Below are positions 856-14,316 of a stretch of 40,078 bases of DNA, one piece after another. Origin of the DNA: a virus; the IMG/VR virus record IMGVR_UViG_3300037808_000234, positions 1 to 40,078 of that record. One strand, written 5' to 3'. The notes beneath the pieces were generated by a model that saw only the letters and a list, made by a program, of their open reading frames with translations, was not told the origin of the DNA and ran no database searches. A program made the position numbers and the translations under genes. Positions within the stretch are counted from its first letter, which is position 1. Each line of letters starts with the position of its first letter.

Positions 856-1123
856 GTACGTCAATGTCTACCTCGAAGATAGAGCATACGGCGGTCCCGA
901 AGAGGGCGGCTGGTATTACGACTGCGGACAACCCGTTAGTTCAATAGCCTGCGACAACGATGCGGAAGTGTCTATGTATAGGGGGCTGATGGGCGAGTGG
1001 TGCGATAAACAGAACAAGGACCGCTCCCCGGTGTATTCGGTAGCATCGGAGGGTGTGTTTGTCTCCGTTGTTGAAGACAATCCCGCAAGGGGTTATCCGT
1101 CTGAGCGTCCTTACTACGAGTGA
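848..1123 (+). CDS. Small conserved-type phage protein with YGGPEEGGW motif, 91 aa
   Basis: The start is taken at ATG 848, which overlaps the stop of the previous gene, rather than an upstream ATG at 791 lying deep inside that gene. Residues 13-21 contain YGGPEEGGW followed by YYDCGQPV. I associate this motif with small uncharacterised proteins in other phages, but I cannot name a family or function. The protein is soluble with no membrane segment. It is the last gene before a 546-nt gap full of RNA-like secondary structure, and its stop codon lies at the base of the first hairpin (1122-1148). Confidence 0.75.
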   Translation: MYKYVNVYLEDRAYGGPEEGGWYYDCGQPVSSIACDNDAEVSMYRGLMGEWCDKQNKDRSPVYSVASEGVFVSVVEDNPARGYPSERPYYE

Positions 1124-1653
1124 CTGAGTCGTTACGCACGACTAAGTCCAATTAGTAAGGGCGGCCTGTCTGGGCAGGTGCGGAAAAGAAATTAAGCCTA
1201 GAGCGTCCCGGCAATGGCCGAATGTTAGAAGGGGACGGTGCGAACGCCTAGTGCGATAGCGTGCCGTAGCAGCCTGAACACATTGCCGGGGGTTTGCGTT
1301 TTAACTACTAGGTCAGGGGAGGAATACCCTGGCCGCTGTTATTACTAACCTCGATATTCCTCTCCAACCATGCCCTGCTGCGTGTTCGGTTTGATGGCTC
1401 GGTCCCGCCCATACTAGTTAGGGCGTGTCCCCCTATGACCTTACACCAGTACTCCTGTGTTGCGACTGTTTCCCTCAGCCTTAGCTAATTACTACAAGTA
1501 GAGTCCAACCTTGCATTGGTAGGGCAAAGTAAAAACGAAGTGGGGCCGTCCACTACCCCCCAAGTTTGCTCCTTGGGTTCTGGGGTAGGGTGGCGGCTCT
1601 GCTACCCAATCAGTAGTCGGGCCTTCGTCTGGCTACTTGGCAATGGTGCCTAC
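1122..1653 (+). ncRNA. Candidate large structured non-coding RNA (about 530 nt)
   Basis: No credible gene occupies 1124-1669. Helices visible by direct complementarity, in order: 1122-1125/1145-1148 with 1127-1131/1139-1143 (one G-A mismatch); 1207-1216/1281-1290 (10 bp perfect, CCCGGCAATG with CATTGCCGGG) enclosing 1235-1242/1260-1267 (8 bp); 1311-1318/1327-1334 with a loop that pairs to 1355-1362; 1401-1404/1437-1440 around 1406-1410/1421-1425; 1443-1449/1455-1460; and a three-way junction closed by 1519-1526/1647-1653 holding a long hairpin at 1545-1597 and an 11-bp hairpin at 1612-1637. The gap lies inside an otherwise gapless, overlapping gene cluster, so it is conserved space rather than slack. 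It could be a free RNA, a long leader of the gene at 1670, or an antitermination element. I see no group I/II intron core, tmRNA, RNase P or tRNA motif. The boundaries are approximate. Confidence 0.6.
1311..1362 (+). other. H-type pseudoknot or bistable switch within the structured RNA
   Basis: Stem 1 pairs GGTCAGGG (1311-1318) with CCCTGGCC (1327-1334), 8 bp including one G-U. Its entire 8-nt loop, GAGGAATA (1319-1326), is perfectly complementary to TATTCCTC (1355-1362). The second helix could extend to 11 bp (1316-1326 with 1355-1365) if it invades stem 1, so the two helices may be mutually exclusive or form a pseudoknot. Confidence 0.55.
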
Positions 1654-5346: not shown

Positions 5347-5574
5347 ATGCCCTATAATCACCGAGGAAGAGAGCCCAGAACCAACCGTCTTGAAGTCCGA
5401 TTGTCCGATTCCGAACTGGCTAGTTTGGATCAGACTTGCGTTCGTTTAGACAGGACCGCGTCTGTTATTGTACGTCTGGCCTTAGCCGCATTTGTGGAAG
5501 GCCCAAGGAGCCATGCCCAGACAGCCGACATCAATAACCCGCCGGAGCCTACGGGACACCGCCCGAGTTCTTAA
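5347..5574 (+). CDS. Ribbon-helix-helix DNA-binding regulator, 75 aa
   Basis: Residues 12-50 match the ribbon-helix-helix pattern: a short strand (NRLEVRLS), helix A (DSELASLDQTCVRL), a turn, and helix B (TASVIVRLALAAFV). These proteins dimerise and read DNA with the strand, usually as repressors binding repeated operators. The ~390-nt non-coding region just upstream contains direct repeats and hairpins that could be its targets; autoregulation is inference. The ribosome-binding site is weak (AAAGG about 12 bases upstream). The last 62 nt overlap the start of the next gene. Confidence 0.75.
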   Translation: MPYNHRGREPRTNRLEVRLSDSELASLDQTCVRLDRTASVIVRLALAAFVEGPRSHAQTADINNPPEPTGHRPSS

Positions 5575-5878
5575 CATACTGGCCGCACCCTCAGATGGGA
5601 GGAAGGTCAAGGTTAGGGTGGTGCGTAGTCTGCCAGCCGATAGGTTAGGTGACTGCACCCAAAATAAAGATCACTACTTGGTGCGTTTAAGCGCCGAGAT
5701 AGTAGACACTCAGCCCGATGCCGTGTGGATGTTGCTTGCTCATGAGTGGGCTCATGCACTGGCATGGGAGAACTGTACTCACAGCCACGGTGAAGCATGG
5801 GGCATGGCCCTAGCTAAAGCGTGGCGCATCATTAGTGGCGAACTGTCAATAGGAGATTTAAACGATGGACTGGAATGA
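5513..5878 (+). CDS. Second SprT-like / HExxH metalloprotease-like protein, 121 aa
   Basis: The zinc signature HEWAH (H77, E78, H81) is followed by H92 in SHGEAWG, matching the SprT-type HExxH...H layout. Unlike the protein at 2003-2596, it has no C-terminal zinc ribbon. The start is taken at ATG 5513 with AAGGAG upstream, although the spacing of two bases is short; an upstream TTG at 5492 would add seven residues. It overlaps the RHH gene and the primase start (5865). The location directly before primase suggests a role in DNA transactions; the substrate is unknown. Confidence 0.75.
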   Translation: MPRQPTSITRRSLRDTARVLNILAAPSDGRKVKVRVVRSLPADRLGDCTQNKDHYLVRLSAEIVDTQPDAVWMLLAHEWAHALAWENCTHSHGEAWGMALAKAWRIISGELSIGDLNDGLE

Positions 5879-13417: not shown

Positions 13418-13814
13418 AACTGTTCCTCTGTAGGTCTTGTAACTTCATGGCGAGCGCAAAGGTGGGCACTAGTACGCAATCAATGTGAGTGTAGCCTAAC
13501 TGCTCGGCTGCGGTTATACGGTTGGTCCCGCCGCATACACAGTTAACTACATGGGTATCAGGGAGGAAGTTACCGTTGCCTCCCCGTGAGCGTGACTCTG
13601 CTGCTAGGTCTTCCCTAGGTCCACGCACTACGATCACAGGGTTAGCTAAACCGTCAGCCGAGATTGACTCTGCAATCTTGTCTGCAAAGATAGGGACATC
13701 GCGCACAGGGCAATGGAGTTCGTTTAAAGCCATCGACCTTACCTCGAAAGAAGTGATGGCAATACCGGGAAAGCGTAGTGCTGAGACGTAGCTGCGTAGG
13801 CGTAGTTTAAGCAT
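13383..13814 (-). CDS. ParB/sulfiredoxin-fold nuclease-like protein, 143 aa
   Basis: The core resembles the ParB N-terminal domain: ALNELHCP near residue 29, ADKIAESI-x4-GLANPVIVV (44-63), and the GGTNRITAAEQLGY signature (95-108), where ParB proteins have G-x-R/H-R. Members include CTP-binding partition proteins and phage DNA nucleases or modification helpers. No helix-turn-helix follows, so a plasmid-style partition role is unlikely. The start at 13814 overlaps the resolvase stop; an alternative ATG at 13733 (residue 28) has a better GAGGTAAGG site and begins exactly at the domain boundary. It overlaps the next gene by 35 nt. Confidence 0.72.
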   Translation of the reverse strand: MLKLRLRSYVSALRFPGIAITSFEVRSMALNELHCPVRDVPIFADKIAESISADGLANPVIVVRGPREDLAAESRSRGGNGNFLPDTHVVNCVCGGTNRITAAEQLGYTHIDCVLVPTFALAMKLQDLQRNSYGARADAVGTA

Positions 13815-14316
13815 CGGGGATGATCTTACTGAACATTAGAATAGCTGCCAGGACAGCGTCGCTTTCGTGGGAGGAGTGACAAGAAGAAGCCGTGATTGAC
13901 TTGACGACCTCTTTCACTTCGCGCTTCTTGGGGATGAACTTCCGATCCCACTCCTTGCCCACCGCACGGCAGACAGCTTTCTTTAGGGACAAGGGCGCTG
14001 CGTGACGGAACGGTATCTTTCGGGAGTGGGACCAAGCCACAATGATAGAAGAAACTGCCCAGAGGAAGGCGGTAGTTTTGATCTGGCCCATAATAAATGG
14101 CGGCGTCTCGCTGGCCACGGCGTCAATGGGGCCGTACTCTTTGTTTAAACGCTCCAGCTCAGGCCAGAGGAACTTCGTGAAGGTCATCGGCGCGGTCGCC
14201 TTGCCCACCGACATGTTCTGGGAGTGGACAACCTTGGCTGCTTTGCCGTCTTCGGACATACGCACAATGGCTAAGCCCAGGTTGCGGTAACCGGGGTCTA
14301 CTCCAAGGACAATCAT
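13807..14316 (-). CDS. ruvC-like: RuvC-like Holliday junction resolvase, 169 aa
   Basis: The RNase H-fold resolvase pattern is clear: VLGVDPGYRNLGLA at the N terminus with catalytic D7, a second acidic residue E70 in ASETPP, and a C-terminal HESDAVLAA with H150 and D153. The length is close to bacterial RuvC (about 170 residues). It would cut branched replication or recombination intermediates before packaging. It overlaps the LAGLIDADG gene upstream (ATGA overlap) and the ParB-like gene downstream. Function is known for the family; the phage role is inferred. Confidence 0.85.
   Translation of the reverse strand: MIVLGVDPGYRNLGLAIVRMSEDGKAAKVVHSQNMSVGKATAPMTFTKFLWPELERLNKEYGPIDAVASETPPFIMGQIKTTAFLWAVSSIIVAWSHSRKIPFRHAAPLSLKKAVCRAVGKEWDRKFIPKKREVKEVVKSITASSCHSSHESDAVLAAILMFSKIIPDA

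Follow-up and report, generated by a model that had tools for sequence, protein, structure and literature searches.

A variant pistol ribozyme motif and an adjoining probable conserved structured RNA in the early gene cluster of a phage

What occupies a stretch of several hundred nucleotides that separates two genes in the early cluster of a phage but appears to encode no protein? The stretch lies at positions 1124–1669 of a 40,078-nt viral DNA (IMG/VR record IMGVR_UViG_3300037808_000234), which was analyzed at full length and is called the window here. On its upstream side is a plus-strand gene (848–1123) for a 91-aa protein of unknown function with the motif YGGPEEGGW (the YGG gene; PHROG 30656, likewise of unknown function), and on its downstream side is a plus-strand gene (1670–1888) for a 72-aa zinc-ribbon-like protein, both taken from the open-reading-frame list. 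An earlier note, made from the letters alone, had called these 546 nt gene-free and proposed that they encode a large structured RNA that recalls GOLLD or ROOL but shows no motif by which to place it among the known classes. The open-reading-frame list and a frame-conservation test agree that neither strand contains a plausible gene: protein-level conservation was not found in the frames of the gap, and the few weak matches were spread over several frames of the same DNA. We rejected the gap as coding sequence because no frame is conserved. Short open reading frames occur in it by chance, but with no conserved frame and no match to a group I or group II intron in Rfam, an overlooked protein or intron is extremely improbable. 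BLAST searches of the gap against annotated phages gave no match, and likewise none for L114, L123, and L121 (L numbers designate the sequences used for comparison). Elsewhere in the window, one early region encodes two different SprT-like HExxH proteins (2003–2593 and 5492–5878; HELVH and HEWAH), the first of which belongs to PHROG 6361, and a minus-strand RuvC-family protein (13807–14313; PF02075, E 4e-5) adjoins the late genes.

Scans of the gap with Rfam covariance models, the check that the earlier note had suggested, returned a pistol ribozyme match and one spurious match to a human lncRNA, and nothing else at gathering or relaxed thresholds. The pistol match (RF02679; 1164–1227) appeared at the relaxed threshold and scored 19.7 bits, below the gathering cut-off of 34.5; its alignment uses a false short P3, and the real P3 is formed by 1206–1216 and 1281–1291. 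Read with this helix, the 5′ third of the gap (1164–1297, plus strand) has the parts of a whole pistol. The P1 hairpin, GCCUG(UCUGGG)CAGGU at 1164–1179, has 5 bp including one G-U and covaries among the 18 pistols described below. Its loop (1169–1174) pairs with a second pseudoknot strand (1197–1202), UCUGGG with CCUAGA, in 6/6 positions, and the pseudoknot also covaries. The P1–P2 linker GCGGAAAAG (1180–1188), unlike the UAAA-type linker of ordinary pistols, leads to the 5′ strand of P2 (1189–1191) and to the catalytic core UUAAGCCUAGAGCG (UUAAG..AGCG; 1192–1205). P3 comprises 11 bp and a 64-nt branched insert (1217–1280), together spanning 1206–1291, and is followed at 1292–1297 by the predicted cleavage site, G1292/U1293, and the 3′ strand of P2. 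This site is a two-nt GU junction as in described pistols (PMC4604425). The catalytic positions of the env25 pistol are purine 32, G33, G40, and G42 (PMC6154101); the equivalents of its A32, G33, G40, and G42 in the window are A1195, G1196, G1203, and G1205, all of which are kept. The helices named in the earlier note are all present, and two belong to this unit: the 10-bp stem (1207–1216/1281–1290) lies within P3, and the branched hairpin is the 1217–1280 insert. The 11-bp hairpin (~1606–1640) and the closing helix (1297–1306/1528–1537) lie further 3′.

Judged from sequence, we firmly assign 1164–1297 to the pistol class of self-cleaving ribozymes, contrary to the claim that no motif linked the region to a known class, and file it as a variant because its score is under the Rfam cut-off. 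This assignment has weak points. In addition to the score of 19.7 against 34.5 and the non-consensus linker, P2 is poor, with pairs A1191-U1294, A1190-U1295, and G1188-C1297, only two of them contiguous, and 2/3 of the innermost P2 pairs are formed compared to 3/3 in L068 and L003. A competing fold without the pseudoknot is ~5 kcal/mol lower under an energy model that cannot count pseudoknots. A decayed ribozyme surrounded by chance structure, with no present function in the window phage, would match the low score and weak P2, as well as the missing U tract after the window's 3′ hairpin; the pseudoknot, core, and P3 are nevertheless intact, and the pairing of the 3′ hairpin has been preserved through double changes, and we give decay very little credence. 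A pistol descriptor matched the window once and had 0 matches in 400 dinucleotide shuffles (both strands, 32 Mb). This descriptor was composed after the window had been seen, and the independent test is therefore provided by relatives.

Related phage contigs were gathered by way of the YGG protein, the polymerase, and the neighboring SprT-like protein; relatives of the YGG gene occur at 64 viral loci. Eight related phage lineages have a pistol in the same neighborhood, and six of the eight also have the YGG gene, which was not detected in L070 and L143. Scores were 34.2 bits for L068/L133, 38.7 for L003, 37.1 for L004, 67.3 for L070, 64.4 for L143, and 17.2 for L140/L141, in which the pseudoknot is perfect. 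In L144, two pistols flank the YGG gene, one before it (1040–1104, 70.2 bits) and one straight after it (1455–1520, 66.5 bits), and in L121 a 55.0-bit pistol lies directly 3′ of the YGG gene and upstream of the SprT gene. Most of these pistols lie immediately downstream of the YGG gene; in L068, L144, and L121, no more than ~3 nt separate its stop codon from the start of the ribozyme. Neither the YGG gene nor a pistol was found at this locus in the close relatives L136–L139 and L146. In the window, a 10-bp hairpin at 1122–1148 (GACUGAGUCGU..ACGACUAAGUC) overlaps the YGG stop codon; L068 is without this hairpin, and its pistol is directly 3′ of the stop codon.

Covariation, which the earlier note had also proposed as a check, is present both in the pistol part and in the 3′ hairpin discussed below, and this comparative evidence supports the structure most strongly. 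Across 18 distinct pistols, including that of the window, 96% of cells were paired and double changes occurred in 18/21 pairs; the alignment was trimmed to the core and arranged by the pistol structure, and the paired percentage is therefore biased towards a pistol. In a sliding control, paired cells fell to 36–52%, and the covariation score was 0.756 compared to 0.208 for shuffled alignments. A GYRNMRAAG-type linker, unlike the UAAA type, is common to the window, L068, L003/L004, and L141, and a search of 2.9 million viral contigs for this linker-type pattern matched only these lineages. L003 and L004 share this linker type with the window, yet exceed the Rfam cut-off. The variant pistol pattern had five matches in bacterial genomes, with a single true relative (L169) among them. 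The window element resembles known pistols (RF02679; PMC4604425) in P1, P3, the 6-bp pseudoknot, the GU junction, the equivalents of purine 32, G33, G40, and G42, and the phage setting, and departs from a typical pistol in its branched P3 insert, its linker, its weak P2, its sub-threshold score, and the conserved RNA body attached to it. Where P3 carries a large insertion and the linker is altered, pistols score under the Rfam cut-off and are missed.

The presence of strong canonical pistols at the same place in relatives also bears on the resemblance to GOLLD and ROOL. A large ornate RNA of that kind, with the pistol-like part as one non-catalytic domain, would share with the window RNA its length, helix density, and phage-like setting, as GOLLD and ROOL are long, heavily folded non-coding RNAs. 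The region 1000–1800 has no Rfam match to either family at E≤10 or other likeness in sequence or structure, no tRNA was found in the window, and the RNA instead carries a predicted self-cleaving ribozyme whose catalytic nucleotides and junction are kept. The likeness drawn in the earlier note did not hold up, and we regard such an RNA as very unlikely here.

Downstream of the ribozyme, positions 1293 to ~1607 (plus strand) are likely to form a second, conserved non-coding structured RNA. The folding energy of the whole 532 nt described in the earlier note is unremarkable (z −1.3; −0.5 for 1124–1655), whereas the region 3′ of the ribozyme had z −2.15 relative to shuffles in the window and −2.06 to −3.33 across six lineages including the window, compared to coding controls that averaged about −0.75. 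This RNA body shows local similarity to L068 beyond that of 100 shuffles. Among the downstream regions of the eight lineages, shared words were not clearly beyond chance and none was common to all. In the minimum-free-energy fold, the closing helix pairs CGUUUUaACU (1297–1306) with AGUaAAAACG (1528–1537); its counterpart in L068 is CGUUaGCUCUUGC/GCAAGGGCaAGCG, a correspondence judged by eye. A hairpin with loop GAGGAAUA (1311–1334) was also recognized by eye, as was the recurrence of this loop on a changed stem in L068 and L169. The conserved 3′ hairpin (1533–1607), with ACGAAGUG just upstream, scores 69 bits in the window with our model (R1/R2).

The evidence is stronger within the window's own group, in which L068 was compared with L169, a relative from a Gemmatimonadota MAG. 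Identity was 81% for the YGG gene, 98.7% for the pistol, and 87.6% from the pistol through the 3′ hairpin, and past this hairpin was 43% in a spacer of ~80 nt and 78% in the next gene. In this group the RNA body has thus changed less than the genes on either side of it. In L169 (3200–3340), a run of N adjoins the SprT gene on the MAG "chromosome" that contains the L068-like phage region, with bacterial genes beyond it, and scaffolding may have produced a false assignment to a Gemmatimonadota host.

From the window, L068, and L169 we built a covariance model of the 3′ hairpin, which recovered the same hairpin in the gap of L121, a lineage with an ordinary pistol that was absent from the training set (33.5 bits; E 1.2e-6 over 238 kb, a rough value as the model is our own). 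With L121 included, both-side changes occurred in 8/25 pairs, and 1/500 shuffles scored as high. The model had no significant match in L070, L143, L144, L141, or L003; the best L070 match (E 0.34) and one L143 match (E 1) fall within their gaps and are suggestive only. L003/L004 have only ~90 nt downstream of the ribozyme, indicating that the ribozyme does not require the body. The terminator scanner made no call at the L068 3′ hairpin, and there is no clear terminator in the window; that transcription stops at the L068 hairpin is offered as a suggestion only. The attached RNA matched no Rfam family, and a literature search, with most subscription papers outside its reach, found no report of it. 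The idea of a large structured RNA was supported by covariation and conservation in relatives, and its lack of a known class was not, given the pistol motif in the 5′ third, which represents a known class in variant form.

Comparison shows that the ribozyme motif is present, that it sits close to the YGG gene, and that the 3′ hairpin is conserved. Transcription, actual cleavage, RNA release, the 3′ end, and a cellular job are what we infer beyond this. In the reading that we favor, with a probability of roughly 60%, the variant pistol at 1164–1297 is joined to the conserved structured RNA at ~1293–1607 and cuts it free from the early mRNA. Ribozyme and RNA body would presumably be part of a rightward early mRNA, which would fold and cut itself between G1292 and U1293, 3′ of the YGG gene. 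The upstream product would be a YGG-gene mRNA whose 3′ end is the folded ribozyme, finishing in a 2′,3′-cyclic phosphate, and the downstream product would begin with a 5′-OH at U1293 and carry the structured RNA. Known pistols leave such cyclic-phosphate and 5′-OH ends and are estimated to make >10 cuts per minute under physiological conditions (PMC4604425). The freed RNA would probably act on its own, as the gene that follows differs between phages: the position of the 1670–1888 gene is taken by a different gene in L068, L003, and L121.

The ribozyme might instead serve only to process early mRNA by a cut separating the YGG gene from the genes downstream, giving the pieces their own ends and stability, with the downstream structure as a leader or stabilizer of the next genes. 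RNase III sites in T7 early mRNA are a precedent, as cuts there give the pieces their own ends and stability. As in T7, a polycistronic early phage mRNA would be severed at a structured intergenic site, but in the window the RNA itself would do the cutting, with no protein involved. The ribozyme lies between same-direction genes in all lineages, pistols stand on both sides of the L144 YGG gene, and L003/L004 have a ribozyme with almost no RNA body, all of which would fit processing. By contrast, conservation between L068 and L169 ends at the 3′ hairpin, leaving the ~80-nt spacer before the next gene unconserved, and the 3′ hairpin persists across lineages that have different next genes. Because conservation ends well before the start codon and the next gene varies, we favor a free RNA over a leader and consider processing alone possible but doubtful. 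Theta (HDV-like) ribozymes of gut phages (PMC10879173) would likewise release a structured RNA at one end from a longer transcript, the role proposed here, but are of another class and often adjoin tRNAs, whereas the window has none; no HDV-type Rfam match was found in the gap.

Our searches of the literature found no description of the natural role of pistol ribozymes. We tentatively suggest, at somewhat less than even odds, that phage pistols are commonly release devices behind stop codons and free conserved, folded non-coding RNAs, of a class not described before, from the operon mRNA; the window element would be one lineage of these. The recurring setting near the YGG gene provides a specific and cheap test of a phage ribozyme's purpose.

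Pistols were also seen in other settings. In L114 (1490–1920) and L122, from an unrelated group of 130-kb phages, a pistol lies ~10 nt after the stop codon of a gene. Behind it come roughly 400–500 nt without an obvious gene, with a conserved block (~1780–1919) that ends in CCCC..GGGGUUUUUU. A promoter after the L114 RNA was considered and dropped, as the spacing of its two boxes is too wide and the scanner made no call there. In L067 (263–599, minus strand), a 190-kb phage, a 59.7-bit pistol lies ~190 nt upstream of a same-strand tRNA gene. L109/L127 and L116/L131 have two pistols per record, ~870 and 560 nt apart, respectively. L125 (1500–1575) and L124 (1500–1590) contain candidate circularly permuted pistols, in which the Rfam model matched at positions 24–68 only: a core and P3 without an upstream P1 are followed ~50 nt downstream by a hairpin whose loop, UUUGGG, pairs with CCCAAA of the core.
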